From: Thermanaerosceptrum fracticalcis
GTDB taxonomy: Bacteria > Bacillota > Peptococcia > DRI-13
Length of the DNA stretch: 64,000 nt
Direction of reading: 5' to 3'
NCBI RefSeq assembly: GCF_000746025.2
Contig: NZ_CP045798.1
Coordinates: forward strand, 1,970,501 to 2,034,500
Positions 1,613 to 48,017 of the stretch are shown piece after piece (position 1 is the first letter of the stretch; each line of letters opens with the position of its first letter). The notes under the pieces were generated by a model, which did not search any database, was not told the origin of the DNA, and saw only the letters and a program-made list of their open reading frames with translations. Both the position numbers and the translations under genes were made by a program.

Positions 1613-1698
1613 GGATCGCCTTACAAGCACAAATAAGTGGTGCCATGAGGCCGCACGCTAATCATTGTTTTAACTCAGCGTTAAATGTGCGGCGATCC
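1613..1698 (+). ncRNA. Candidate IS110 bridge RNA region
   Basis: GGATCGCC (1613-1620) is the exact complement of GGCGATCC (1691-1698), closing an 86-nt domain. Nested inside, CCGCAC (1651-1656) can pair with GTGCGG (1687-1692); it shares two bases with the outer stem, so the helices compete or stack. The position, directly 5' of the transposase, is where IS621-type elements encode the bispecific bridge RNA. The target- and donor-binding loops could not be assigned because the element ends are unknown. Confidence 0.4.
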
Positions 1699-3004
1699 AG
1701 TCACTGTCTTCTCCCTCACAATTTCATTGCAAGGAGGGAGAATTCTGAGAATCGTTTATCCCATCTGTTGTGGCGTCGATGTACACAAGACATTTCTCGT
1801 CGCTACGCTCATCACAACGCAGGGTATCGTTCCGAGTTACAAAAAAAAGCGTTTTTCTACCTTTAACAAATCCATTCTGGCGTTTAAGCAGTGGCTGATT
1901 GACAACAACTGCTTTGACGTTTGCATGGAGAGCACCGGGAAGTATTATGTTCCCATATACAATTTGCTGGAGGACAGCATCCGGGTTACCGTCGCCAACC
2001 CCAAGTGGGTTGCTGCTGTTAAGGGCAACAAGGATGATGTCAAGGATTCCAAGTGGATCGGCGATCTTTTTCGCCTCGGTCTGGTTCCCGGTAGCTTTAT
2101 CCCGTCCAAGAACATCCGCATTTTGCGGGAGTATACGCGATACCGCTTCAAGCTCGTTTCCTGTAAATCCAGCGAAAAGAACCGCTTTCAGAACGCTTTC
2201 ACCGTTTGCAATGTCGCCCTTGATGCTGTCGTTTCCGACATGTTTGGCAAATCTGCCTCTTCCATCACGGACTACCTTGTAAACTCGGATTCTTTCGATC
2301 CAAAACATTGCGTTTCCTTGCTGCAACGCTCCTTGAAGAAGAAAGCCGACGAGGTCATCGAATCTATTGAGGGTTTTCAAATGTCTGCGGAACAGAAGAC
2401 ACGCATCCGTTTCGTCCGCAAACACTTGGATTTCGTGGAGCAGCTCATTGCCGACCTCGACCAAACCATCGCCCGGTTGGCTGCACCCTTGGAAAGCGCC
2501 ATTGCCCTACTGTGTACCATTCCCGGAGTTGACCGTAACATAGCCATTACGATCCTCTCCGAAATTGGTACGGATATGTCTCAGTTCTCATCCTCGAAAC
2601 GCTTATGCTGCTGGGGGGGACTAACGCCCGGCAACAATCAATCCGCAGGCAAAAAGAAGTCCGTTCGCATTACGAGGGCCGGGGTTTATCTCAAGCCCAC
2701 GCTCGTGCAAGCAGCCCATGCCGCTGTAAAATCGAATTCTTCCGCTTACTACCGTATCAAATATGAGCGGATATCCAAGCGCCGAGGGAAGAAACGAGCC
2801 ATAATCGCCATTGCCAGAATGATACTTACAGCCACTTATCATATGCTCCAATCAGGTGAAGTCTTCAATCCTTGTGACCTCTACCATGTTGATATGCCGG
2901 TGGAGCTTCGCAATAAGCAAAAGGAGAAAGCTTTGAGGCAAGCTGCTAAACTCTTGGTTGCCCATGGTATCGTAAACCCCGAACATATCACGCTGCCTGC
3001 TTAA
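1685..3004 (+). CDS. IS110-family transposase (DEDD recombinase)
   Basis: Up to 439 codons. The N-terminal RuvC-like DEDD domain shows CCGVDVHK, the MESTGKY acidic residue and DVKDSKWIGDL. The C-terminal Transposase_20 domain shows CTIPGVDRNIAITILSEIG and LCCWGGLTPGNNQSAGK, which carries the family's catalytic Ser region. The ATG at 1685 is the only standard start, but AAGGAGGG lies just before ATT (1742) and CTG (1745), and family members begin near the IVYPICCG segment. Translation therefore probably starts there, about 20 codons in, leaving 1685-1741 for the RNA region. The frame is intact, so the element may be active. Confidence 0.9.
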   Translation: MCGDPVTVFSLTISLQGGRILRIVYPICCGVDVHKTFLVATLITTQGIVPSYKKKRFSTFNKSILAFKQWLIDNNCFDVCMESTGKYYVPIYNLLEDSIRVTVANPKWVAAVKGNKDDVKDSKWIGDLFRLGLVPGSFIPSKNIRILREYTRYRFKLVSCKSSEKNRFQNAFTVCNVALDAVVSDMFGKSASSITDYLVNSDSFDPKHCVSLLQRSLKKKADEVIESIEGFQMSAEQKTRIRFVRKHLDFVEQLIADLDQTIARLAAPLESAIALLCTIPGVDRNIAITILSEIGTDMSQFSSSKRLCCWGGLTPGNNQSAGKKKSVRITRAGVYLKPTLVQAAHAAVKSNSSAYYRIKYERISKRRGKKRAIIAIARMILTATYHMLQSGEVFNPCDLYHVDMPVELRNKQKEKALRQAAKLLVAHGIVNPEHITLPA

Positions 3005-5983: not shown

Positions 5984-6190
5984 AAGCAAAAGTTTAGGGA
6001 CGACCCTTGGCGGATCGTCCCTTTTTTAAAAAAGTAATGGAGTTTTGCAAGCCCGTAATCCAAAGATTTGCGGATATACACAGGCAATACCCCCATTTAA
6101 CTATATAGCTTCACTATTAATATATCATAAAACACTCTGAAAAGTTCAAAATTATACAGAATACATTTCGACAGATTTAGTTGGTAGTTG
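5984..6190. other. Spacer between the leu operon and the oxidoreductase operon
   Basis: No gene. It contains the hairpin GGGACGA (5997-6003)/TCGTCCC (6015-6021) with T6 on the plus strand and A6 beyond, which may end the leu transcript weakly, and a short run of the TAGTTGG/TAGTTGT repeat at 6178-6203 touching the end of leuB. Confidence 0.5.
5997..6027. terminator. Hairpin with T run
   Basis: GGGACGA (5997-6003) pairs with TCGTCCC (6015-6021), and six T follow on the plus strand. No plus-strand gene is nearby. On the minus strand the hairpin is followed only by TAAACTTTT, so its use as the leu terminator is uncertain. Confidence 0.45.
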
Positions 6191-7270
6191 TTAGTTGTTA
6201 GTTATCTTCCTTAACTCCTTTCTCACGGCCTCGCCCATGGCCCGGGTCCCTACCAGTTGAGTGCCGGGAGACCAGATATCGCCCGTACGCAGGCCCTGAT
6301 CCAGGACGTTGCTGACGGCCTTTTCAATGGCCAGGGCAGCTTCTCCCCGGTTAAAGGAAATGCGCAGCATCATGGCCACAGAGAGTATGGTAGCCAGGGG
6401 GTTAGCCTTGTCCTGACCTGCTATGTCAGGAGCTGAACCGTGGGCCGGTTCATACAACGCGGGTCCTTCCCCAATACTGGCGGATGGCAGCATCCCCAGG
6501 GAACCCCCTAAGACAGAGGCTTGATCTGAAAGGATATCACCAAACATGTTTTCCGTCACAATAATATCAAACTGGGCGGGATTGAGGCATAGCTGCATAG
6601 CGCAGTTATCCACATATAAGTGATTAAGATTTATCTCCGGGTAATCCTTCGCTATTTCTTCCACAGTTTTGCGCCAGAGGCGGGAAGTATCCAAGACATT
6701 GGCTTTATCTACAGAAGTAACTATCTTTCTTCGTTTACCGGCTAAAGAAAAGGCGACCTTAGCTATCCGGGCAATTTCCGGAGTGGAGTACTCAATAGTA
6801 TCATAAGCTTTGATTCCGCCCAGGATAGCTTCCTGACCCCTTTTCCCAAAATAGGCGCCTCCGATCAATTCCCGAACGACGATTAAGTCTACCCCTGCAA
6901 GTTTTTCATTCTTCAAAGGTGATTGTTGAATGAGCTGAGGCCAGCATTTGACGGGGCGCAGGTTAGCATAGAGGTTCAGTGCCTTACGGATACCCAGGAG
7001 GCCTTTCTCCGGGCGCTTCTCCCCCGGCAGCTGGTCCCATTTGGGACCTCCCACTGCTCCTAAAAGCACAGCATCACTCTGCAGGACCAGTTCTTTGGTT
7101 TCCTCCGGGAAAGGCTCACCGGTGGCATCAATAGCCGCCCCGCCTAACAAACCCGTTTGCGTGGTGTAAGTAAAGTCATATTTATCCTTGATGACTTCCA
7201 GTACACAAAGAGCCTGTTCAATAATTTCCGGCCCAATACCGTCACCGGGAAGGACCGCCAGTTTAACCAC
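6191..7270 (-). CDS. leuB: 3-isopropylmalate dehydrogenase
   Basis: 359 residues, full length. It oxidises and decarboxylates 3-isopropylmalate with NAD to 4-methyl-2-oxopentanoate, the third step of leucine synthesis. Family marks: [13 protein letters not shown] at the N-terminus, [20 protein letters not shown], and the Mg/substrate segment [33 protein letters not shown], then [14 protein letters not shown]. The start is GTG at 7270, overlapping the end of leuD by eight bases. It is the last gene of the ilv-leu operon. Confidence 0.96.
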
Positions 7271-7772
7271 GGTTCTTCACCTTCTCTCTCACATAGGGAA
7301 TGAGCCCGCCTTTTCCCAGAATTTCTAACATAAAGGGCGGAAAAGGCTCTCCCCGGAAGACAGTACCTGTCGTAAGGTCTTTTATCTCACCGGAAACCGG
7401 GTCTACTCCAAGTTTACTCCCTTCTTGCACGGTCCTGGAAACTTCCGGAGCAACAATAATAGGCAGGCCGATATTAATGGCATTGCGGTAGAAGATACGG
7501 GCGAAGCTTTCGGCAATGACACAACTGAAACCGGCGGCCTTCAGGGCGATGGGTGCATGCTCCCGGGAACTGCCGCAGCCAAAGTTTTTACCTGCTACCA
7601 GAATATCTCCCGCTTTAACCCTTTCCAGCAGATTTGGTATTAAGTCTTCCAAACAGTGCTGGGCGAGAAACTCCGGCTCCGACCTGTTGAGGTAACGGGC
7701 AGCAATGATCAGGTCCGTATCCACATCATGGCCTACTTTCCAGACCTGCCCGCTGATTTTATTCCCTGCCAT
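7263..7772 (-). CDS. leuD: 3-isopropylmalate dehydratase, small subunit
   Basis: 169 residues, the short archaeal/clostridial LeuD type. With LeuC it isomerises 2-isopropylmalate to 3-isopropylmalate. The aconitase swivel-domain signature [17 protein letters not shown] is near residues 50-66. The ATG at 7772 overlaps the leuC stop by one base (TGATG), and the GGAGG site lies within leuC, implying coupled translation. Confidence 0.95.
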
Positions 7773-9037
7773 CACGCCACCTCCTCTGGAGAACCAATCC
7801 GGCCCAGTATGGCCGAGGCAGCGGCAATGGCCGGACTGGAGAGATACACTTCACTTTCCGGGTGACCCATCCTGCCCACAAAATTGCGGTTTGTGGTAGA
7901 GATGGCCTTTTCTCCTTTAGCCAAAATCCCCATATAGCCCCCCAGGCAGGGACCGCAGGTAGGTGTGCTCACCACTGCACCGGCATTGACGAATATCTCT
8001 ACCAATCCTTCCTTCACAGCCCGGAGATAGATTTCCTGGGTTCCGGGTATGACAATGGCCCGGACTTCCGGGTGAATCTTTTTACCTTTAATAATCTCCG
8101 CTGCCACCACCAGGTCTTCCCAGCGCCCGTTGGTACAGGAACCGATCACCGCCTGGTCAATCTTCACCTGTGTGGCCTGGGAGACAGGACGGGTGTTGGA
8201 AGGAAGGTGGGGAAAAGCTACCTGGGGTTCCAGGTTGGTAACATCGATTTCTATGACCTCACTGTAAGCAGCATCTGGGTCACTGGTATAAACCTTCCAG
8301 GGCTTTTGGGCCCGTTCTTTCACATAAGCTAAGGTTTTTTCGTCCGGTTCAATGATGCCATTTTTGGCCCCGGCTTCAATGGCCATATTGGCCATGGTCA
8401 GGCGGCCGTCCATGGATAAGTCCCTGATGGCTTCTCCCGTAAATTCCATGGCTTTATACTGCGCACCATCTACACCAATTTTTCCGATAATGGCTAAGAT
8501 ATAATCTTTCCCTGTCACCCATGGGTTCCTGGGTTTCCCTTTGAGAATAAACTTGATGCTCTCGGGTACGCGGAACCAGATTTCTCCTGTAGCCATACCT
8601 ACGGCCAGGTCTGTACTTCCCACCCCCGTGGCAAAGGCGCCCAGGCCCCCGTAAGTACAAGTATGGGAATCGGCGCCTATCACCACGTCCCCAGGAACGA
8701 CCAGGCCCTGTTCCGGTAAAAAGCAGTGTTCTATGCCGTTGCGCCCAACTTCATAATAATGGGTTAATCCCTGCTCCCGGGAAAACTCTTTAATTTCCAG
8801 GCACTGCTGGGCCGAGGGTATATCTTTGGCCGGGGCAAAATGGTCGGGAATCAAGACCACTTTGTCTTTGTCAAATACCCTGTCAACGCCGATTTTTCTA
8901 AATTCCTTGATGGCCAAGGGTCCTGTAATATCATTGGCCAATACCAGGTCCAGTTTTACGTTGATCAGTTCTCCCGGAGAAACTTCGGCTAAACCTGCAT
9001 GGTCCGCCAGGATTTTCTCCGTGATTGTCATCCCCAT
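7772..9037 (-). CDS. leuC: 3-isopropylmalate dehydratase, large subunit
   Basis: 421 residues, the short LeuC/HacA-like form that pairs with a separate LeuD. It holds the [4Fe-4S] cluster: [12 protein letters not shown] carries the first Cys and the [14 protein letters not shown] segment the other two. The start at 9037 follows GGGGGAG six bases upstream, giving [15 protein letters not shown]; a frame extension to 9055 has no better site. It lies between leuA and leuD. Confidence 0.95.
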
Positions 9038-9051
9038 TGTATTCTCCCCCT

Positions 9052-10605
9052 TCATTCGTTAACAGCAGGCAGGGCTACCATTTCTTTATAGGTCGCGGCA
9101 ATTTTGTTGAGGGCATTGATATAAGCCCGGGCGCTAGCTTCGATGATATCTACGCTTAATCCCCTGCCCATAAAGGTTCGGTCACCGATTTCCACCCGTA
9201 CTACCACTTCACCCTGGGCATCGGTTCCTCCCGTAACGGCGCTGATACTGTAGGAATCAAGCCTCACAGGCAGTTTGACAATTTTATCGATAGCCCGGTA
9301 GGTGGCTTCCACCGGTCCATCGGCACAGGCAGCCTCCTCTACCAGGCGGCCCTCAATCTCCAGCCCCACAGTAGCTGTGGGCGAGATATTGGTACCAATG
9401 GAAACCTGCAGGTTAGCAAGCTTATAAATCTCTTCACCGCTCCCGACAACCTGGCTATCCACCAAAGCAATTAAGTCTTCGTCCAGTATTTCTTTTTTGC
9501 GGTCAGCTAGCTGCTTAAATTCCCGGAAGGCTTTGTCCAGAGCTTCCCCTTCCAGGTCATAGCCCAGTTCCTGGAGCTGCAGCTTTAAGGCATGCCGCCC
9601 CGAATGTTTGCCTAAGACCAGTTTATTGCTGCTGATTCCCACCAGCTCGGGATTCATAATTTCGTAGGTTTCTCTTTCTTTAATCACGCCGTCCTGATGA
9701 ATACCTGATTCATGGGCAAAGGCATTTCTTCCCACAATGGCTTTATTGGGCTGGATCAACATACCCGTTAAAGTACTCACCATCCGGCTGGTACGGTAAA
9801 TCTCCCGGGTATTGATGCCGGTGGTAAACCCTAAATAATTTCTCCTGGTGTATAAGGCCATCACCACTTCTTCTAAAGAAGCGTTACCGGCCCTCTCACC
9901 GATACCGTTAACAGCAACTTCTACCTGCTGGGCGCCATTACGAATGGCGGCCAGGGAGTTAGCTACAGCCAAACCTAAATCATTATGACAGTGGACACTA
10001 ATAATGGCTTTTTCGATATTGGGAACACCCTGACGGATGGCTTTGACAAATTCTCCGAACTCCCAGGGAGTGGCATAACCAACGGTGTCCGGAATATTGA
10101 TGACATTCGCCCCCGCCTCTATCGCTGCGGTAAAGACCTCGCACAGAAAAGGTATGTCACTGCGGAAGGCGTCTTCCGCCGAAAATTCCACATCCTCCAC
10201 CAGGCTTTTGGCTAATTTCACACCGGCCACAGCCATTTCCTTCACTTCTGCCTTGGTTTTACGCAGTTTATGCTTCATGTGGATATCCGAGGTAGCCACA
10301 AAGGTGTGGATACGGGGACGTTCGGCGCCCTTTACGGCTTCAAAAGCCGCCATAATATCCTCCCTGTTGGTCCTGGCCAACCCGGCGATAATGGGTCCCC
10401 GTACCTCGTTGGCAATGCGCTTCACGGACTCAAAATCACCCGGTGAGGCAATGGGAAAACCAGCTTCAATAATGTCAACTCCCAAACGGGCTAACTGGTG
10501 GGCTATAGCCAATTTTTCTTCAAGATTAAGACTCACACCAGGGGACTGTTCCCCGTCTCGCAGGGTTGTGTCAAAAATATAGATGCGCTTTTCCGCTTCT
10601 CCCAT
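9052..10605 (-). CDS. leuA: 2-isopropylmalate synthase
   Basis: 517 residues. It condenses acetyl-CoA with 3-methyl-2-oxobutanoate, committing carbon to leucine. The HMGL-like TIM barrel begins [16 protein letters not shown] and includes the [17 protein letters not shown] metal ligands and [14 protein letters not shown]. Residues beyond about 385 form the LeuA dimerisation/regulatory domain ([37 protein letters not shown]), so feedback inhibition by leucine is expected. AAAGGAGG precedes the ATG at 10605. Confidence 0.96.
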
Positions 10606-10618
10606 CTCATACCCTCCT

Positions 10619-12286
10619 TTACTCCCTACCAATCATTTCTGCTAAACCGCAACCGGCCAGCACCATGGGATACACGTTATCTTTAGCCGTAACGATAACC
10701 TCCAGTACAGCCAGGCCGGGATGTTGGAGAAATTCACTTACTTTTCCCCTGATTTCTTCCCGCCGGGTGATCTTTAAGGCTAAAGCCCCATAAGCTTTGG
10801 CCAGATAATGAAAATCGGGATTCTTTTTAAAATGCACAGCCGCATACCTTCCACCACAGTAATGATCCTGGAGCTGTTTAACCATGCCCAGAGTCTGGTT
10901 ATTAATGATTAATACCTTAAGGGGTAAGTCCTGCTCCAGAGCGGTTCCCAGTTCAGGCATCCCCATCTGGAAACTCCCGTCTCCTGTGATAACCAGTACT
11001 GTATGTCCGGGGCAAGCCACCTGGGCCCCTACAGCGGCAGGAATGCCATAACCCATGGTTCCTAATCCCCCGGAGCTAATGAAGGTCCGGGGTTTTTTCA
11101 CTTTTAGGAGCTGGGCTGCCCATATCTGGTGCTGTCCCACATCGGTAGTAAAGATGATATTGTCTGGGGCCAGCTCATTGATGGATTTCATGATCTCTGG
11201 TACCGTGATTTCGGGATTTTCCCCCTGGTCTTCACCGAAGATAGGCGGAAAAGAAGCAATCTCTTCCCACCACGCTGCATTTTCCTTATTCACTAACCTG
11301 CCAACCAACTGATTTAACACGATTTTTAGGTCTCCTACCAAAGGTATATCCACCCGAACATTTTTACCTATTTCTGCCGGATCAATATCGATATGCACAA
11401 TTTTGGCCCCAGGAGCAAATTTGGCCGTATTTCCGGTAACCCGGTCATCAAAACGCATCCCCAAAGCGACGAACAAATCACAGCGGCTAACGGCCAGGTT
11501 TGCCCTGGCTACCCCATAAGTACCCAGCATCCCCAGGGCTAAGGGGTGATCACCGGGAATGGCGCCCAAGCCCATCATGGTACTTACCACGGGTACATTG
11601 AGGATTTCCGCTATTTTCGTTAGCTCCTGGCCTGCTCCGGCGCTGATGACCCCACCCCCTGCACAGATTAAGGGGCGTTTGGCATCCATCAAGAGCTGGA
11701 CTACCTGCTTGATCTGACCGGCATGCCCATTGACATTGGGTTTATAACCCCGCAATTCAATATGGTCACAGGCTTCATACTCCAGAAGACTGGCCGAGAC
11801 ATCTCTGGGAATATCGATGACAACAGGACCAGGGCGGCCGGATCTGGCAATATGAAAGGCCTCTTTCACAATGCGGGGTAACTGACGGGGGTCCTTGACC
11901 AGGTAATTATACTTGGTAATGGGATCGGTAATCCCCGTAATATCCACCTCTTGAAAAGCGTCAGTGCCCACCATACTGGTGGAAACCTGCCCTGTAATGA
12001 CTACCAGGGGAATAGAGTCCATGTAGGCGGTAGCAATACCCGTTACCAGATTAGTTGCCCCCGGCCCGGAAGTGGCCAGGCATACCCCTACCTTACCACT
12101 GGCCCTGGCATAACCGCTGGCCTCATGGGCTGCCCCCTGCTCGTGTCGTACAAGCACATGCCTGATCCCCTCTGACTTCATCAGGGCATCATATATCTCC
12201 AGGACTGCCCCTCCTGGGTATCCGAAGATAACTTCCACACCTTCCTTTTCCAGACATTTTACCAGTATCTCCGCACCCAGCAGCAT
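10619..12286 (-). CDS. ilvB: Acetolactate synthase large subunit (second paralogue)
   Basis: 555 residues, a TPP-dependent catalytic subunit of acetohydroxyacid synthase. It has the catalytic Glu in [19 protein letters not shown] near residue 48, [11 protein letters not shown], and the TPP site [15 protein letters not shown] with NNQTLGM. It is the second ilvB-like gene in this operon, placed after ilvC and before leuA. It differs throughout from the copy at 13800-15503, so it is an old paralogue. No second small subunit is present. Confidence 0.93.
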
Positions 12287-12305
12287 GGCATCACACCTCC
12301 GATTT

Positions 12306-13301
12306 CTATCTTCTCTTCAACCAGGGCATATAACTTCTTAGTTCTTTACCAACTGTTTCCACCAAATGTTGTTCATCCATACGTTTGATGGCATTATAAC
12401 GGGGCCGACCCGCCTGGTTCTCCAAGATCCATTCCTTGGCGAAAGATCCATCCTGAATTTCCCGTAATATCTTTTTCATTTCTTTTCTGGTCTCTTCGTT
12501 GATAATACGCCGTCCAATCACCATATCACCATATTCAGCCGTGTCGCTGATAGAGTATCTCATGCCGGCAATACCATCCTCATACATCAGGTCAACAATC
12601 AGCTTTAACTCATGGAGGCACTCGAAATAAGCGGATTCTGGCTGGTAACCGGCTTCTACCAGGGTATCAAAACCTGCTCTTACCAGTTCGGTGAGGCCAC
12701 CGCACAGGACACACTGCTCGCCGAAGAGGTCAGTCTCTGTTTCCTCTTTAAAGGTAGTTAAAAGGACTCCGGCTCTGGTGCAGCCAATGCCTTTGGCGTA
12801 AGCCAAACCCAGTTCCATGGCTTTACCGGTAGCGTTCTGGTGTACGGCAATTAAACCGGGGATCCCGATTCCTTCCTTGTATAACCTTCTTACCATATGA
12901 CCAGGACCCTTGGGGGCCACCATAAAGACATCCACATCAGCAGGAGGTTTAATTTGGCCAAAGTGAATGTTAAAACCATGGGAGAAAACTAAGGCTTTAC
13001 CGGGAGCCAAACCGGGAAGAATTTCTTTTTTATAGGTTTCCGCCTGTTTTTCATCAGGAATTAAGATCTGGATCACATCAGCCATTTGGGCCGCCTCAGG
13101 TACCGTATAAACTTTAAGGCCATCCTCTTCGGCCTTGGCCCAGGAAGCGCTATCCGCTCTTAAGCCAACAATAACGTCAACGCCGCTATCTTTAAGGTTC
13201 TGGGCCTGGGCATGACCCTGGCTGCCATAACCGATAACCGCCACTTTTTTCCCTTCCAGGTAACTTAAATTAGCATCGTCATCATAAAACATTTTTGCCA
13301 T
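12306..13301 (-). CDS. ilvC: Ketol-acid reductoisomerase
   Basis: 331 residues, class I. It converts acetolactate to 2,3-dihydroxyisovalerate with NAD(P)H. The Rossmann motif [21 protein letters not shown] starts near residue 18, and the C-terminal knotted domain carries [12 protein letters not shown] and Mg-binding Asp/Glu residues in [18 protein letters not shown]. Ser rather than Arg-Ser clusters follow the glycine loop, so cofactor preference is left open. The start at 13301 has GGAGGAG upstream; the frame runs on to 13319 without a better site. Confidence 0.96.
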
Positions 13302-13348
13302 GAGAATCTCCTCCTTCAATTTATCCTTTGTTTTTTTGTGTTTTTCTG

Positions 13349-13828
13349 TTATTTTTGTCCTCTTACCATAGCCACTTTGCCGGTTCTTACCAGTTCCTGG
13401 ATGCCAAAGGGCTGGAGAGATTTAATAATAGCCTGGATTTTTTCCTCGTCTCCGGTAGCTTCAATAATGAGAGAACGCCGTCCAATATCGACAATGCGGC
13501 AACGGAAAATCTCCACAATCTGCATAATCTCCTGGCGCACCGGGGGGTCAGCCGCCACCTTTAGGAGCAAAAGCTGTCTTTCCACCGTCTCCTCGTTGGT
13601 AATATCATTTACCTTGATAACATCTACCTGTTTATTCAGTTGTTTGCTCACCTGCTCGATGACCTTTTCATCACCTTCAACTACCAGGGTGATCCGTGAA
13701 ACCGTTTTATCTTCAGTTTCACCCACTACCAGGCTCTCAATATTATAGCCTCGGCGGGCAAAAAGTCCTGCAACCCTGGATAAGACACCGGGGTGGTTCT
13801 CAACTAATACGGCTAATGTGTGTCTCAT
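13349..13828 (-). CDS. ilvN: Acetolactate synthase small (regulatory) subunit
   Basis: 159 residues, an ACT-domain subunit that activates the large subunit and confers valine feedback. [31 protein letters not shown] is the ACT signature, followed by the C-terminal ALS_ss_C domain ([18 protein letters not shown]). Its start overlaps the preceding ilvB by 29 bases, with GGAGG inside that gene. It is the only small subunit in the operon and may serve both large subunits. Confidence 0.95.
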
Positions 13829-15503
13829 CCTGCCACCTCCCTAACATTTCATTGGGTTTTCCTCCAGGAGGCACCATGGGAAATACATTCTCACCGGTAT
13901 CAACCATACATTCCACAATCACAGGGCCTGGTGTACGCAGGGCCTGGGCTACTACACCTGTGACCTCTTTGGGTTCTGTAATTTTTAAGGCTTTAATGCC
14001 ATAAGCCTCCGCTAGGCGTACAAAATCCGGGTTGTAGTTAAAAATGGTATGCGCATAATGCCGGTTAAAGAACAACTCCTGCCACTGCCGTACCATACCC
14101 AGGCAGGCATTATTTAAGATAAAGATTTTTACAGGCAGCTGGTGTTGAGCCAGGGTCGCCAGTTCCTGGATATTCATCTGAATGCTGCCGTCACCGGTAA
14201 AGAGCACCACCATTTCTCCCGGCCGGCCCAGGCTGGCACCGATAGCAGCCGGTAAACCAAAACCCATGGTACCCAGGCCCCCGGAGCTTATAAAGCTGCG
14301 TTTCCCTCCCACCGGGTAATACTGGGCAGTAAACCACTGGTGCTGTCCCACATCCGTGACCACAATCACTTTATCCCCGGCATGGTTGGCCACTTCTTCT
14401 ACTATATGCTGTGGTTTCAGGTTAGGACATTTTTCATATTTCATGGGATATTTCTTTTGCCAATTCTTAATTTCATTCCACCAGTCTTCAGTCTGGAAAC
14501 GAATATTTCCTTCTTTAAGCACTTTAAGTAAATGGACTAAAAATTTCTGCGCATCACATACGACCGGTATATTGGTTCTTACATTTTTACAAAGTTCAGC
14601 GGGGTCTATGTCCACATGGATGATTTGGGCATGAGGTATAAAATTCTGGGGTTTGCCTGTGACCCTATCACTAAAACGGGTCCCGATAGCCAATAAAACA
14701 TCACATTCACTTAAGGCCAGGTTAGCAGCAGGTAAACCGTGCATTCCCACAATACCTAAACATGCAGGATGGTTCTCAGGCAATGCTCCCTTACCCATAA
14801 AGGTAGTTACTACTGGAAGATTGGTGTAGCGTACTAACTGCAGCAACTGCTCCCAGGCCTGGGAGGCTATAACCCCTCCTCCCGCCAGGATAAGGGGCTT
14901 TTTGGCTTCAGTTAAGCTTGCCATTATTTTAGGCAGTTGGTTCTCTAAGCCGTTTTTATGATTACCTTTACGGGTAGTAATCCCCGGATAGGCCTTGGTT
15001 AAATCCACAGAACCCGTAAAGATATCTTTAGGTATATCAATTAATACAGGCCCTTTCCTGCCTGTGGTGGCCACGTTCCAGGCCTCTTCCAGAACAGGGG
15101 GCAAATGTTTCATATCTTTTATCAAATAACTATGTTTGGTGATAGGCATGGTAATGCCCATAATATCAGCTTCCTGAAAAGCATCCCGGCCAATGCTGTC
15201 CAGTCCTACCTGTCCGGTGATAGCCAGCAAAGGAACTGAATCCAGATAAGCATTGGCAATCCCTGTGACCAAATTGGTAGCACCGGGACCGGAAGTAGCA
15301 ATACATACACCGGGTTTACCGGTGGCACGGGCATAGCCGTCTGCGGCATGAACCGCTCCCTGTTCGTGCCGGGTCAGGATATGACGGAGAGAAGAACGCC
15401 CCAGCACATCATAGAGGGGAATAACCACTCCCCCGGGATAACCAAAAACTACATCCACACCTTTATTTTCCAGAAACTTAACAACATACTGCGCTCCATT
15501 CAT
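13800..15503 (-). CDS. ilvB: Acetolactate synthase large subunit (first paralogue)
   Basis: 567 residues. The same catalytic set as the other copy: [58 protein letters not shown] and NNACLGMVRQWQELF. MVRQWQELF is the form typical of anabolic IlvB enzymes, in contrast with MVKQLQDHY in the second copy. It directly precedes and overlaps ilvN, so this is the likely main partner of the small subunit. Confidence 0.95.
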   Translation of the reverse strand: MNGAQYVVKFLENKGVDVVFGYPGGVVIPLYDVLGRSSLRHILTRHEQGAVHAADGYARATGKPGVCIATSGPGATNLVTGIANAYLDSVPLLAITGQVGLDSIGRDAFQEADIMGITMPITKHSYLIKDMKHLPPVLEEAWNVATTGRKGPVLIDIPKDIFTGSVDLTKAYPGITTRKGNHKNGLENQLPKIMASLTEAKKPLILAGGGVIASQAWEQLLQLVRYTNLPVVTTFMGKGALPENHPACLGIVGMHGLPAANLALSECDVLLAIGTRFSDRVTGKPQNFIPHAQIIHVDIDPAELCKNVRTNIPVVCDAQKFLVHLLKVLKEGNIRFQTEDWWNEIKNWQKKYPMKYEKCPNLKPQHIVEEVANHAGDKVIVVTDVGQHQWFTAQYYPVGGKRSFISSGGLGTMGFGLPAAIGASLGRPGEMVVLFTGDGSIQMNIQELATLAQHQLPVKIFILNNACLGMVRQWQELFFNRHYAHTIFNYNPDFVRLAEAYGIKALKITEPKEVTGVVAQALRTPGPVIVECMVDTGENVFPMVPPGGKPNEMLGRWQDETHISRIS

Positions 15504-15525: not shown

Positions 15526-17190
15526 TCATGCCGGAGAGATTACAGCTCCTTTATCGGCTGAACTGACCATGCGGGCGTAACGGGCTAAATAACCCGTGAG
15601 GCCTTTTTGGGGAGGTCCAGCCCACTTCTCTTTACGCTGTAATAACTCTCCCTCATCAACTAATAATTCCAGGCTCCGTTCGGGAATATTAATACGAATC
15701 ATGTCGCCCTCTTCAACCAGGGCAATCACCCCCCCTGCTGCCGCCTCCGGTGAAACATGGCCTATGGAGGCCCCACGGGAGGCGCCGGAAAATCTACCAT
15801 CAGTAATTAGGGCCACGGAAGAATCCAAACCCATACCCGCCAGGGCAGACGTTGGAGTAAGCATTTCCCGCATGCCGGGGCCACCTTTGGGCCCTTCGTA
15901 ACGGATCACAATAACATCCCCAGATTTGATGCCTCCGTTTAAAATGGCTTCCGTCGCTTCTTCCTCACTGTTAAAAATGCGGGCAGGTCCCTGGTAGACC
16001 ATCATCTCTTCGATGACTGCCCCCTGTTTAACGACTGCACCGTCAGGGGCCAGGTTACCTTTCAAGATAGCAATCCCTCCCTCGGCACGATAGGGATTTT
16101 CTATGGTGCGAATAACTCCTCCTGTTTCGTTACGGGTTACCTTTAATACTTCTTCCAGGCTGACCCCGGACACAGTTTTCACCGTCCCGTCAATGAGCCC
16201 ACCCCTGGCCAATTCCTTCATCACTCCCATAATGCCGCCTGCTTCTGCCAGGTCCTCGATAAAACTGGGACCTGCAGGGCTAAGTTTACACAATTGTGGG
16301 GTGGTGCGACTGATTTGATCTATCTGTTCCAGGTCCAGCTTAATCCCTGCCTCATGGGCAATGGCCGTAAGGTGCAGGACGGTATTGGTGGAGCAGCCTA
16401 ATGCCATATCTGTACGCAGAGCATTAGTAAATGCCGCCTTGGTCAGGATGTCGCGCGGTCTTAAATCCTGTTCCAGGATGGCCATGATCTTTTCCCCCGC
16501 CTCCTTGGCTAAACGCCTGCGGGCCGCGGTAACGGCAAGAATAGTACCATTTCCCGGTAATCCCATACCCAAAGCCTCGGTTAAACAGTTCATGGAGTTG
16601 GCCGTATACATGCCGGCACAGGAGCCACAGCCGGGACATGTACAGTCTTCCATCTCTTTTAATTCACTTTCAGTCATGGTCCCTTTGCTATACTGTCCTA
16701 CCGCCTCGAAAATATCGCTGAGGGCAATGCGCTTGCCTTGAAATTTTCCCGATTGCATAGGCCCGCCACTTACAAAAATGCTGGGTAGATTCAATCTGGC
16801 TGCCGCCATCAGCATCCCTGGAACCACTTTGTCACAATTAGGTATGAAAACCAAGGCATCTACAGGATGGGCCATCACCATGGTTTCGATGGAATCGGCA
16901 ATAAGTTCCCGGCTGGCTAAAGAATATTTCATGCCGGGATGGTTCATGGCAATACCATCGCATACGGCAATAACGGAGAACTCAAAGGGAACTCCGCCCG
17001 CATTACGCACACCGGCTTTTACAGCCTCGCCAATCTCCCGCAAGTGCTGGTGTCCCGGTACAAAGTCATTTTGTGAATTGACGATGCCGATAAAAGGCCT
17101 CTTCATTTCCCCATCGGTAATGCCCAGGGCTTTTAGCAATGAACGGTGGGGCGCCTTGGTAGCCCCTTCCTTAATTAGACTGCTGCCCAC
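15526..17190 (-). CDS. ilvD: Dihydroxy-acid dehydratase
   Basis: 554 residues, first gene of the operon. It dehydrates 2,3-dihydroxy-isovalerate and -methylvalerate to the 2-oxoacids. Cluster ligands are visible in [12 protein letters not shown] and [26 protein letters not shown], and the C-terminal half has [22 protein letters not shown]. The start is GTG at 17190, with AAGGAGAG seven bases upstream. The long leader before it carries the riboswitch and an attenuator. Confidence 0.96.
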
Positions 17191-17229
17191 TTCTTTTCTC
17201 TCCTTCCACTGTGTAACCTATATATAAAA

Positions 17230-17275
17230 ACCCAAGCGCATAAGTTCTAAACGAGTAGAACCTATCCGCTCGGGT
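17230..17275 (-). terminator. Attenuator terminator of the ilv-leu leader
   Basis: On the minus strand ACCCGAGCG (17275-17267) pairs with CGCTTGGGT (17238-17230, one G-U pair), with an inner GTTCTA/TAGAAC stem and a following TTTTATATA. Its 5' arm is shared with the riboswitch core, the mutually exclusive arrangement expected of a riboswitch attenuator. Confidence 0.8.
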
Positions 17276-17332
17276 CTTTTATCCCCACGGTGTAGCAATT
17301 TCTGCCTGTACCGCTCGGTCGCGAACACCGCG

Positions 17333-17444
17333 TATTAGTTACTAGTTACTAGTTATTAGTTACTAGTTACTAGTTGGTGGTTGGTAGTTGTTGGTATATT
17401 CCACTAACAACTATCAACTAACAACTACCAACTACCAACTAAAT
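17333..17444. repeat. TAGTTGG/TAGTTAC repeat block inside the riboswitch hairpin
   Basis: 112 bp of degenerate 7-mers (plus strand TTAGTTAC, TAGTTGG, then CCAACTA, CAACTA in the opposite sense) lie between CCGCG (17328-17332) and CGCGG (17445-17449). The two halves are roughly self-complementary, so the block lengthens a variable stem of the aptamer without touching its core. Confidence 0.8.
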
Positions 17445-17560
17445 CGCGGCTGGAACCCTAGGTACACTTCTCTCGTATGGTTGAAGTACTGTTAAAGATT
17501 GTCGAATTTATTATAACAGACGCAACAGTTACCTCTTATTGTATAACAGCTTTGAGTATT

Positions 17561-17589
17561 ATGATATAAGGTAGAGCGTATGTTGTCAA
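17561..17589 (-). promoter_or_regulatory. Sigma-A promoter of the ilv-leu operon
   Basis: On the minus strand a TTGACA -35 (17589-17584) and TATCAT -10 (17566-17561) are spaced by 17 bp. Transcription would begin about 75 nt before the riboswitch. This gives the operon a promoter separate from the T-box transcript further upstream. Confidence 0.75.
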
Positions 17590-17632: not shown

Positions 17633-17932
17633 CTAAAAAACCCGGATAAAAATTTGCGTAATTAATACACGTACCAGAACGGCCAGGACCAGGATAGTAC
17701 ACGTCCCCAGAAATAGTTCAATGACAAAGGCCACAAAATATTCTGTCCGGTTTAATTCTTCCCTGCTGTAACGTTCTTTCTGGGTAAGATAAACCGGTAC
17801 AAAGGAGATACCTGCATAAACCATCAGTTTCCAGGGCCCGGCCGCCCAATACCATAAACCCAGGAAAAGATCACACAAGACCACCGTCATCACGGGCAAA
17901 ACTAGTTCCTTCAATACTCGTTCGTACTTCAT
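17633..17932 (-). CDS. Small hypothetical membrane protein
   Basis: 99 residues with three probable membrane spans: LVLPVMTVVLCDLFLGLWYW, WKLMVYAGISFVPVYL and FVAFVIELFLGTCTILVLAVLV. A charged loop rich in Lys, Arg and Glu lies between the last two. I do not recognise the family. The ATG at 17932 has GAGG six bases upstream; a TTG twelve bases earlier is the alternative. It lies on the minus strand between the T-box (18663-18945) and the ilv leader, so it is the first gene a T-box readthrough transcript would meet. Confidence 0.6.
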   Translation of the reverse strand: MKYERVLKELVLPVMTVVLCDLFLGLWYWAAGPWKLMVYAGISFVPVYLTQKERYSREELNRTEYFVAFVIELFLGTCTILVLAVLVRVLITQIFIRVF

Positions 17933-18105
17933 ACTAAACCTCAATGAATGTTACTCATGAATTAAGTTTTACCACATGACAAAGGAATTTCCTGCGGGTT
18001 TTTCATTAAAAATTAACTCATAATTTATTTTTTAAAAAATAAGCACTACATGGGACCCGATCGTAGGCATAAAAAATTTTTAAAATGGAATTTTAAGAAA
18101 AAGTA

Positions 18106-18181: not shown

Positions 18182-18472
18182 ATGAAGTTGTCTGTTACAG
18201 AAGAGGCTAAAAAACAGTTGCAAGATCAGCTTAAAGAGAACGAGAATCCCTATATACGGGTGCTTGTTAAAGGTTATGGTTGAGGTGGCCCCCGTTTGGG
18301 ATTGGCTCTGGATGAGCCTAAAGAAGACGATGCCCACTTCCAGGTTGACAAGCTTAATTTTATTGTGGAGAAACACCTGGCTAAAAGCTGGCCGGAAGTA
18401 CGCATTGATTACCGCGATTCCTGGATGGGTAAGGGTTTTGTGGTTTATGCCGGTAGTGGTGCATGCTGCTAA
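18182..18472 (+). CDS. HesB-like selenoprotein (in-frame UGA = Sec34)
   Basis: 96 residues when the TGA at 18281-18283 is read as selenocysteine. The context is VLVKGYGUGGPRLGLALDEP. In HesB/IscA-type proteins the conserved Cys sits at this place, and the HesB-like selenoprotein family has Sec there. Sequence after the TGA stays coding to the stop (VDKLNFIVEKHL, IDYRDSWMGKGFVVYAGSGACC), so this is not decay. A bSECIS-like hairpin follows the UGA. The start has AAAGGAGG eight bases upstream. Its role is probably Fe-S or sulfur/selenium transfer. A conventional gene call would miss it. Confidence 0.9.
18287..18307 (+). promoter_or_regulatory. bSECIS-like hairpin for Sec34
   Basis: GGCC (18287-18290) pairs with GGCT (18304-18307), CCC (18291-18293) with GGG (18298-18300), the loop is GTTT, and ATT bulges on the 3' side. 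It starts three bases after the UGA, within the coding sequence, as bacterial SelB-binding hairpins do. Confidence 0.6.
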
Positions 18473-18662: not shown

Positions 18663-18945
18663 CCTCTCGCCACTGACATTTATGTCAGGGACGAGAGGAT
18701 ATTCACGCGGTACCACCCTGTTTACCTATGGGCAAAGTGCCTCTGAGAAAACGCTCTGCAGGACACTCTTATAGGTCACTCCTTAGCATGTAACGGCTGC
18801 CACCGGTTTATCCTACTTGCTTTCAGATAAACAGCTCGGGGACGAGAAATTATATTTCTGTGTACCGGTTCCCAGCAAAACCCGGCTCTCTGCAACACAT
18901 CTTATATAACAGTTTCCCTTCACAGCTGATATTATATAATTAGGA
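18663..18945 (-). promoter_or_regulatory. T-box riboswitch leader (no adjacent target gene)
   Basis: On the minus strand the T-box AGGGTGGTACCGCG (18719-18706) is followed by a terminator with arms CCTCTCG/CGAGAGG and a T run ending near 18655. Upstream lies Stem I with AGAGAGCCGGG (AG bulge) and a GCTGGGAACCGG distal arm. By alignment to the usual ...NNN..CCGAG layout the specifier is probably CUC (Leu), but this is tentative. Beyond the terminator no minus-strand gene starts for about 720 bases; the region is antisense to the HesB-like gene. Confidence 0.88.
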
Positions 18946-21516: not shown

Positions 21517-22182
21517 TTGCTAAAGTCACTCCTCTACTTTCTGGGAATTTTGCCTTACCGCATACGAGTAAAAATCGTGCGCTTTCTAACTAAAAAATTA
21601 ATAGACTATTATGCCGACCTCAAGATAACGGGTCTGGAAAATATACCGGAAGAAACTGTCATTTTTGTCTGTAACCATCTCTCTAATGCCGATGGTATTA
21701 TTTTTCGCGATATCCTGGCTCACCGGCATGTGGTTTTTATGGCAGGAGTCAAACTGCAGGGCGAATACCTGACTAACCTGGTTTTAGAGACGATAGACCA
21801 TATTTCCATTCACCCTAATCAACCGGACCGCAAGGCCTTAAAAGAAGCTATTGAGGCTTCCCGGGGAGGTAAGGACATCTTTATCTTCCCTGAAGGTACA
21901 CGAAGCCGAACCGGAAAGATGATTGAAGGACGTTCAGGGGTTTTGTTGATTGCTAAGCAGGCGGGAGTACCCCTGGTTCCCGTTGGTATCTGGGGGTCAG
22001 AAAAACTTCTCCCTATCCAAAGCGGCAAAATGGACCAGGAATGGTTCCAAAAAGCTCAAGTGAACGTTGTCTTTGGCCAGCCCTTTACCTTAACAGAACT
22101 GGATGAGGAAAAAGCGATTGAAAGTCTCATGAAAAGAATTGCCCGGCTGCTGCCGGAAGACTACCGGGGGATATACTTATAG
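21517..22182 (+). CDS. plsC: 1-acyl-sn-glycerol-3-phosphate acyltransferase
   Basis: 221 residues. It transfers an acyl chain to lysophosphatidate at the membrane. Motif I is atypical: the usual His-x4-Asp appears as NHLSNADG near residues 50-57. Motif III is FPEGTRSRTGKM and motif IV VPLVPVGIWGSEKL. A hydrophobic N-terminus fits membrane association. A TTG at 21517 is taken as start, eight bases after AAGAGG; GTG at 21508 is the alternative. It is a single gene, followed by a TAGTTGG repeat tract. Confidence 0.88.
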   Translation: MLKSLLYFLGILPYRIRVKIVRFLTKKLIDYYADLKITGLENIPEETVIFVCNHLSNADGIIFRDILAHRHVVFMAGVKLQGEYLTNLVLETIDHISIHPNQPDRKALKEAIEASRGGKDIFIFPEGTRSRTGKMIEGRSGVLLIAKQAGVPLVPVGIWGSEKLLPIQSGKMDQEWFQKAQVNVVFGQPFTLTELDEEKAIESLMKRIARLLPEDYRGIYL

Positions 22183-22205
22183 TTGGTAGTTGATAGTTGG
22201 TAGTA
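22182..22205. repeat. TAGTTGG-type repeat tract
   Basis: TAGTTGGTAGTTGATAGTTGGTAG lies directly after the plsC stop. It is one of five tracts of the same 7-mer family in this window (also near 6178, 17333, 26206 and 47995). Confidence 0.75.
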
Positions 22206-23455: not shown

Positions 23456-24043
23456 TTAAAAGGATGAACCTCGATAGGACTCCCAATCTTCAGGTGTATT
23501 AATATTTAAAAAATATTCACTTTCCCCCAGTTTTTCCGCTATCTCTTCATGGGTGACGGCGTTAACTTTCAAATAAGGATAAATGGCCGTAATCTTGCGC
23601 TGGCCTGCTTTGAGGACCTCTTCAATTACACTGAGGCAACTCTGATGATAGAGGGCCAGCAGCGGTTCATAACAACCTCTCACCTGAGGTACCACCACCT
23701 GATACCCCGGTGCCCTCAGGGCCAGAATCTTGACCAGTTCCCCTTTAAAGCGGGGCATATCACAGGCCATACAAAAATTGTATTCAGTCCTGGAGGCCCG
23801 TAAACCGGCATATATTCCCCCCAAAGGCCCTCCATCCGGGTAGATGTCCGGAATTACCAGGCAGTCCCTGAAGTCATATTCATTCTTCCCGGCAACAATA
23901 ATTACCTGGGTGCATGATTTACGCAGTTCATCCACTATCTTTTCCAGCATTGTCACCGGGCCACAGGGAAGCAAAGCTTTGTTAAAGTTCATACGTGTAC
24001 TTTTGCCCCCTGCCAGGACAATTCCCGTTACCTGCACAGTCAT
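23456..24043 (-). CDS. mobA: Molybdenum cofactor guanylyltransferase
   Basis: 195 residues. It attaches GMP to Mo/W-molybdopterin to make the bis-MGD cofactor that formate dehydrogenase needs. The nucleotide-binding GIVLAGGKSTRMNFNKALLPC is at the N-terminus, then PDGGPLGGIYAGL and CDMPRF. The start overlaps the fdhD stop by one base (TGATG), so the two are coupled. The pairing with fdhD fits the Sec formate dehydrogenase at 36035. Confidence 0.93.
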   Translation of the reverse strand: MTVQVTGIVLAGGKSTRMNFNKALLPCGPVTMLEKIVDELRKSCTQVIIVAGKNEYDFRDCLVIPDIYPDGGPLGGIYAGLRASRTEYNFCMACDMPRFKGELVKILALRAPGYQVVVPQVRGCYEPLLALYHQSCLSVIEEVLKAGQRKITAIYPYLKVNAVTHEEIAEKLGESEYFLNINTPEDWESYRGSSF

Positions 24044-24810
24044 CACTCAATTCTTGTATAATGCGTATACACATTGGCCTTATTGCCCCGGGTAAACCCC
24101 ACCAGGGTTATGCCTACCTCTTCCGCCAGTTGTATGGCTAAAGAAGTGGGCGCTGAACGGGAAACGATAACCGGCACCCCCATCCTCCTTGCTTTGCCGA
24201 TGATTTCCGAGGAGATACGCCCGCTCAGATAAAGAATTTTTTCCCTTGAATCGAGTTTATTAAGTACATAGTAACCGAATAGTTTGTCTACGGCATTATG
24301 CCTGCCCACATCTTCTCTGAATATGAAAGAACCCGGTATTTGCAGGGCTGCACTGTGCACACCGCCCGTTTTTAAGAAAACCTGAGACTTTCTTTGCAGT
24401 ATATTCATGGCAGAAAATATTTCTTCCACTTTGACCTTCATTAAAATAGAGACAGAGTCGTGTTGTCTAACATCATTAAGCTGAAAAAAGCTGGTTCCTT
24501 TACCACACCCAGAAGTGACATAACGCTTTCCCCAGGCCTGCAGGTTTACCAGATTGGCGGCAGCAGTGCTTATGCTGGCAATCCCTCTCTTTTCATCCAA
24601 ATTAACCTCAAGTTCTTCCCCCTTGTGCATCAGTCCCTCTCCCAGCACATAACCAACAGCCAGTTCGTCAAGATGAGAGGGAGAACATAATAAAGTGACT
24701 ATCTCCACGTCATTGAGGACAATCGTGAGAGGTCTTTCTTCCGCCACCCAGTCCACTGTTTCACTCTTTTTTTGAGAAATATACTTTCTGATACCAACTT
24801 CTTTAATCAT
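24043..24810 (-). CDS. fdhD: Formate dehydrogenase sulfur carrier protein
   Basis: 255 residues. FdhD takes sulfur from a cysteine desulfurase and sulfurates the Mo-bis-MGD of formate dehydrogenase. Seen: ERPLTIVLNDVEIVTLLCSP near residue 24, YVTSGCGKGTSF near 97 with the active-site Cys (the second Cys of the E. coli CxxC is absent), GGVHSAALQ, FREDVGRHNAVDKLFGY and LSGRISSEIIGKARRMGVPVIVSRSAPTSLA. A 45-bp tandem duplication covers its start and ribosome binding site. Confidence 0.95.
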   Translation of the reverse strand: MIKEVGIRKYISQKKSETVDWVAEERPLTIVLNDVEIVTLLCSPSHLDELAVGYVLGEGLMHKGEELEVNLDEKRGIASISTAAANLVNLQAWGKRYVTSGCGKGTSFFQLNDVRQHDSVSILMKVKVEEIFSAMNILQRKSQVFLKTGGVHSAALQIPGSFIFREDVGRHNAVDKLFGYYVLNKLDSREKILYLSGRISSEIIGKARRMGVPVIVSRSAPTSLAIQLAEEVGITLVGFTRGNKANVYTHYTRIE

Positions 24811-24873
24811 TTACTCTCACCCAAAAACCTTTCTGATACCAACTTCTTTAATCATTTACTCTCACCCAAAAAC
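24784..24873. repeat. 45-bp tandem duplication over the fdhD start
   Basis: Bases 24784-24828 and 24829-24873 are identical 45-mers. Each carries the fdhD ribosome binding site, ATG and first nine codons. The upstream copy therefore encodes a 12-codon minigene, MIKEVGIRKVFG then TGA, ending shortly before the true start. The unit is a multiple of three but the stop prevents fusion. Confidence 0.95.
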
Positions 24874-24878
24874 CCGCC

Positions 24879-47989: not shown

Positions 47990-48017
47990 TACTAGTTACT
48001 AGTTCTTAGTTACTAGT
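47990..48017. repeat. TAGTTAC repeat tract
   Basis: GTTACTAGTTACTAGTTCTTAG and TTACTAG: four or so copies of the 7-mer seen also in the ilv leader. Confidence 0.75.

Follow-up and report, generated by a model that had tools for sequence, protein, structure and literature searches.

The window analyzed here, a 64,000-nt stretch of the Thermanaerosceptrum fracticalcis genome, carries nine branched-chain amino acid (BCAA) genes in the order ilvD-ilvB-ilvN-ilvC-ilvB-leuA-leuC-leuD-leuB, all on the minus strand. The first of these, ilvD (15526 to 17190; NCBIfam ilvD, 806 bits), is followed collinearly by ilvB, ilvN, ilvC, a second ilvB, leuA, leuC, leuD and leuB (6191 to 15503; NCBIfam matches and ORFs), which bears out the ilv-leu context named in a first-pass annotation made from the letters alone. 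Given their collinearity, the nine genes probably constitute one transcript. The ilvD start codon is GTG (ATG in the sister species), preceded by a Shine-Dalgarno motif, AAGGAG, at 17205 to 17200. Just past the operon end lies an ORF (1685 to 3004, plus strand) that by its appearance encodes an IS110-type transposase. Upstream of ilvD, a sigma-70-type promoter, TTGACA-17-TATCAT (17561 to 17589, minus strand; 11 of 12 matches in a consensus scan), whose site and hexamers are identical in the sister species (100% identity), precedes a leader in which a riboswitch aptamer runs into an intrinsic terminator.

The aptamer is of ykkC subtype 2, with every core segment present between 17470 and 17258 on the minus strand. 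The three segments quoted in the first-pass annotation were recovered on this strand as CCTAGGGTTCC (17462 to 17452), GACCGAGCGGTACAGG (17320 to 17305) and CACCGTGGGGATAAAAG (17292 to 17276). In the full anatomy, the 5′ core GAAGTGTACCTAGGGTTCC (17452 to 17470), delineated by alignment with 15 ppGpp-type aptamers, contains the binding-pocket nucleotides A5/G6 and the 5′ strand of the outer stem P1. It is followed by the P2 stem, the strands of which, CCGCG (17445 to 17449) and CGCGG (17328 to 17332), pair in the unconstrained minimum-energy fold and flank a 112-nt insert at the P2 apex (17333 to 17444). Next come a segment, GACCGAGCGGTACA (17307 to 17320), with the specificity-class pyrimidine C49 and the 3′ strand of P1; a short variable hairpin, GGCA...TGCT, in the predicted fold (17293 to 17306); and the 3′ core CACCGTGGGGATAAAAGACCCGAGCGGATAGGTTC (17258 to 17292), which includes position 96, an A at 17270. 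As had been pointed out earlier, this 3′ segment is shared with a strong terminator, of which it forms the 5′ arm: a hairpin of at least 22 pairs with a U run (17226 to 17280; −33.8 kcal/mol). The GTACC/GGTAC pairing noted earlier likewise stands, but not its designation as P2, since the literature calls this outer stem P1 (papers differ in their naming).

Several lines of evidence indicate that this core is genuine. The outer stem TGTACC/GGTACA has six of six standard pairs in all 114 public aptamers that were parsed, with two-sided changes at several positions. A 20-base core pattern found matches in 131 of 398 genomes of the phylum, as against a handful for the reversed control, and a covariance model built without the window located the aptamer at E = 2e-12; together these place the core motif above chance. 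Alignment, model, P1 pairs and the minimum-energy core agree on the core segments and the four-way junction. Further, when the whole leader is folded without constraints, the core stem, the terminator and a long P2 hairpin all appear, and the energy is no worse if the aptamer pairs are imposed.

The gap of about 110 nt between the first and second core segments, overlooked in the first-pass annotation, is a tandem repeat of period seven arranged as two complementary arms, i.e., both tandem and inverted. Its units are TAGTTNN in the 5′ arm and AACTANN in the 3′ arm, and these are predicted to form a single long hairpin extending the CCGCG/CGCGG stem. Identity at lag 7 within the insert is 0.66, compared with 0.26 in shuffles (z = 10). 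Across the aptamers, P2 segments are mostly short loops with a median length of 26.5 nt. The same type of repeat is dispersed through the genome, combining the seven-base period with many copies: the TAGTTNNTAGTTNNTAGTT pattern has 308 matches versus 2 for its reverse, and BLAST returns at least 60 matches of the TAGTTNN/AACTANN heptad. The sister species (G001) has 212 pattern matches, a relative from the same order (G004) has 0, and most of the other 44 genomes of the class have 0 (maximum, 12). The arrays inspected in the genome are nearly all intergenic, at unrelated sites, and include the types TAGTTAC, TAGTTGG, TCGGAAG and GTGACCG. By-eye inspection of the copies shows common heptads with no obvious shared termini of the kind that would mark a MITE. 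Such arrays presumably arise through repeat insertion and/or slippage.

Comparison with relatives places the origin of the insert. In the sister species, an array is present at the same place with one heptad fewer, which is the only indel between the promoter and the start codon. In the same-order relative, ilvD is likewise preceded by the switch; the P2 segment there measures 32 nt and has no insert, and the genome contains no such heptads. The array is therefore an addition in the genus of the window. Within the window itself, TAGTT arrays are also seen at 6178 to 6203, 22180 to 22198 and 47993 to 48011 (plus strand), the first of which overlaps the 3′ end of leuB. Two other loci of the genome (L084 and L104) display TAGTTAC, TCGGATG, GTGACCG and CGGATAG in long mosaic intergenic arrays, which give the impression that heptads of one type seed those of another. 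A scan of 29 loci for heptads inside other known RNAs uncovered a lysine riboswitch, an FMN riboswitch and a T-box near arrays, with the arrays outside the aptamers. The second-best heptad copy (L082), which has a few flanking bases in common, was considered as a second riboswitch and rejected for want of a model match.

Long arrays of this kind are not confined to the window. Among the 114 aptamers, 8 of the 31 P2 or P3 segments of at least 45 nt have period 7 at z > 4; the other period exceeding this threshold is 14, and any further ones occur only in the heptad type of the window, through its internal similarity. The period-7 arrays are distributed over seven genomes and four families (f1, f11, f44 and f45) and belong to both ppGpp-type (L111, L112, L158, L205 and L206) and purine-type (L116 and L117) switches. 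Each of the seven genomes has one in P2, and a single genome has one in P3 as well. In the case with both (L205 of G153), the P3 hairpin carries a second heptad array of a type unlike that in its P2. The heptad sequences differ between the families, with no array sequence conserved across them. Dispersal of the heptads through the respective genome was found in G000 (the genome of the window), G001 and G154, and weakly in G153, where matches were counted without the first 18 bases of the query; BLAST found none in the genome of G033. Extending the search around G153 and G154 to more of their relatives yielded no additional switch-bearing genomes.

Taking these findings together, we propose, with a probability of roughly 0.87, that the ilv-leu leader is a ppGpp (ykkC subtype 2a) transcription-terminating ON switch, the P2 of which has been lengthened by the dispersed heptad array of its genome. 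We read this as the colonization of a tolerant P2 apex by genome-resident heptad repeats, with the insert itself likely to be near-neutral. The arrays in P2 have fold z scores of −2.3 to −6.4 (−6.3 in the window), whereas for heptad arrays elsewhere in the genome of the window the median is −1.6 and the strongest value −4.8. This suggests that complementary arms are a precondition for an array to be tolerated, or to form, in P2. The arms of the insert pair even better on the opposite strand (z of −8.5 versus −5.0), and 11% of shuffles of the heptad order match the observed fold energy; hence, we regard the evidence for selection on the fold of the RNA as moderate, short of proof.

An active role for the array is the foremost alternative: its copy number, or a heptad-binding protein, might tune cotranscriptional folding and thereby the response to ppGpp. 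The recurrence of different arrays at one site, the apex of P2, in ppGpp as well as PRPP switches from four families points in this direction, as do the strong self-complementarity of the insert relative to the genomic median, the difference in copy number between the sister species, and the proposal of protein binding to the heptad repeats of Beggiatoaceae (PMC4679880). Against it are the lack of sequence conservation of the arrays between families, the short P2 loops of most aptamers, the distance of the P2 apex from the ligand pocket, and the presence of the other arrays at unrelated intergenic sites. On balance, we consider such tuning unlikely. A more general version, in which heptads of the genome repeatedly colonize or grow from the tips of RNA hairpins as slip-tolerant helices extendable by whole units and serve in P2 as length modules altering the folding kinetics of ppGpp and PRPP switches, is somewhat speculative and in our view rather improbable.

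Alternatively, the insert could have inactivated the switch, leaving a decaying riboswitch and an operon under the control of the T-box or of constitutive promoters. A foreign array of 112 nt within an aptamer and a T-box lying upstream speak for this reading; the preservation of the sequence speaks against it. Between the window and the sister species, identity is 100% in the 5′ core, the promoter and the terminator and 97% in the 3′ core, against 96% for ilvD, a comparison of low power given two such close species; the two differences in the 3′ core fall outside the invariant sites. Moreover, all nucleotides invariant in the ppGpp set are intact in the window, the predicted fold retains the core, and other intact switches carry long P2 arrays. 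Inactivation thus seems quite unlikely to us.

The assignment to the ppGpp rather than the PRPP class, which the first-pass annotation had favored, draws on a comparison of both types. To the initial set, 80 additional loci were retrieved after the search with the core pattern, resulting in the 114 complete aptamers, which were grouped by the N-terminal motif of the downstream gene, without a family search, into an amino acid group (ilvD, ilvE, ilvB and an apparent BCAA transport gene) and a purine group (purE, purD, purB, purK and a permease). A score over three fixed blocks, excluding the insert and position 96, separates the classes without overlap in leave-one-out scoring (16.0 to 32.4 bits for amino acid aptamers; −40.9 to +0.8 bits for purine aptamers), and the window receives +17.7 bits toward the ppGpp type. 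A covariance comparison, with a ppGpp-type model from 15 amino acid-type aptamers and a PRPP-type model from 16 purine-type ones in place of the Rfam models proposed earlier, gave 51.7 and 33.3 bits, respectively, for the window, in alignments that both span only the 3′ two-thirds of the aptamer because the insert breaks the model. At the sister-species locus, the PRPP model, aligned over the full length, scores slightly higher (55.6 bits) than the ppGpp model (51.8 bits). In light of these two observations, we base the class assignment on the block score together with the key positions.

Among the latter is position 96 (Thermoanaerobacter mathranii numbering), which is A in the window and G in the aligned purine-gene aptamers. 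PRPP aptamers have G96, and the change G96A alone converts them to ppGpp binding, a specificity switch of about 40,000-fold (PMC6031431). A PRPP riboswitch of subtype 2b would be in keeping with the close resemblance of the ppGpp and PRPP consensus sequences (PMC6031431) and with the matches of the PRPP model to the window and the sister locus. Yet, in addition to the block score, the window has neither the G at 96 nor downstream purine genes, with the ilv-leu genes in their place, making this reading very improbable. The reading as a guanidine-I riboswitch or as some unrelated attenuator can be set aside almost entirely, since, despite the shared ykkC fold, position 49 is C in the window (and C or T in 114 of 114 relatives), as opposed to the A of guanidine-I riboswitches (PMC6031431), the gene context is that of BCAA synthesis, and RF00442 at E ≤ 0.001, while positive in a Bacillus subtilis control, matches neither the window nor the genome.

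A cmscan of the window against Rfam, at gathering and permissive thresholds, returned only the T-box at the gathering level and no ppGpp or PRPP family; an insert-free copy of a relative was likewise missed. This is attributable to the Rfam release, which does not separate the ppGpp and PRPP classes. The permissive matches on the insert are to miRNA hairpins of animals and plants, which we dismiss as chance matches to a long hairpin. A strict full-aptamer pattern found no matches in 60 relatives, as it disallowed the insert and overspecified the 3′ end, and an ilvD scan of genome contigs retrieved distant relatives only, which were left out of the comparison. Judged by its sequence features, the switch is an expected, additional member of the known subtype 2a class, and its aptamer is predicted to bind ppGpp.

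Turning back to the ppGpp ON switch with a heptad-lengthened P2, we suggest the following mode of action, with the direction of switching taken by analogy from characterized members. In the absence of ppGpp, the aptamer's 3′ part would pair into the terminator (17280 to 17226), and transcription would halt before ilvD. Upon amino acid starvation, ppGpp would rise and, as in the characterized members (PMC6031431, PMC10687018), might stabilize the closing helix of the aptamer, which would then keep its 3′ part, block the terminator and allow the operon to be read. The P2 helix is expected to be directed away from the binding pocket; as the arms of the array are complementary, it could fold back on itself and leave the core pairing undisturbed. 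Since the P2 apex would be transcribed before the binding site, the aptamer with its long hairpin might be finished later, by as long as the polymerase takes to traverse about 110 nt; the interval in which the choice between aptamer and terminator is made is not expected to shrink.

Parallels are offered by several known systems. The studied ppGpp riboswitches (ykkC 2a) include that of Clostridiales bacterium oral taxon 876 (PMC10687018). The window has in common with this class the core segments, the C that pairs with the guanine of ppGpp (C75), a base other than G at 96, the overlapping terminator and the BCAA genes; it departs from the usual form in its P2 apex, a 112-nt dispersed heptad array as opposed to a segment of median length. 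With the PRPP riboswitch 2b (PMC6031431, PMC5912903), it shares the fold and most core bases, but that class has G96 and purine genes in place of A96 and ilv-leu genes. The repeats themselves recall the TAACTGA heptamers of Beggiatoaceae, Cyanobacteria and Bacteroidetes (PMC4679880), which are also intergenic, dispersed seven-base tandem repeats with an AACTR-like core. However, those consist for the most part of short direct repeats ahead of start codons, with none reported within a riboswitch (PMC4679880), whereas the array of the window has inverted arms forming a predicted helix within an aptamer and belongs to a genome with several heptad types.

A precedent for short tandem repeats of genome-wide distribution within a structured RNA is the STRR heptamers that Vioque reportedly described in 1997 inside cyanobacterial RNase P RNA (cited in PMC2858038), although this concerns another RNA in another phylum, whereas the present case is an ON/OFF switch. 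We found no report in the open-access literature of a heptad-extended P2 recurring with unrelated heptads. Of more consequence than the riboswitch itself, the insert shows that a complex riboswitch aptamer can hold more than 100 nt of a dispersed repeat in its P2 with the core intact, and that this has happened with unrelated heptads in at least four lineages. As covariance searches lose or shorten such switches, the number of riboswitches in Firmicutes genomes rich in repeats may be underestimated. Should the arrays influence folding kinetics, they would provide a natural copy number dial on a starvation switch.

Further upstream lies a T-box leader (18684 to 18932, minus strand; Rfam RF00230, 111 bits) with an apparent Leu specifier, CUC, as judged by eye. 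Three species have such a T-box ahead of their ppGpp switch and on its strand, at a distance of about 1.2 kb in the window, about 0.5 kb in the same-order relative and a similar one in the sister species. It faces a convergent gene, and candidate roles for it are as an ilv-leu leader or as an antisense element to that HesB-like gene. Tandem T-box/ppGpp riboswitch AND gates are known (PMC5912903). In contrast to their tandem layout, the two elements here are separated by 0.5 to 1.2 kb with the convergent HesB-like gene between them, and the riboswitch is preceded by a promoter of its own, which makes a joint AND gate doubtful.

The convergent HesB/IscA-like gene (Pfam Fe-S_biosyn; 18182 to 18469, plus strand) has an in-frame TGA at 18281 to 18283 in the context VKGYG-U-GGPRLGLALDE, and the same stop lies in frame in its counterpart in the same-order relative (L236). 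From this sequence context, its product is a probable selenoprotein. The interval between the T-box and the riboswitch also contains an ORF of 103 aa (17633 to 17944, minus strand) with a membrane-like sequence, which has no Pfam or NCBIfam match and is 95% identical in the sister species. Elsewhere in the window, a perfect 45-bp tandem duplication (24784 to 24874) extends across the start region of the ORF at 24043 to 24810 on the minus strand.
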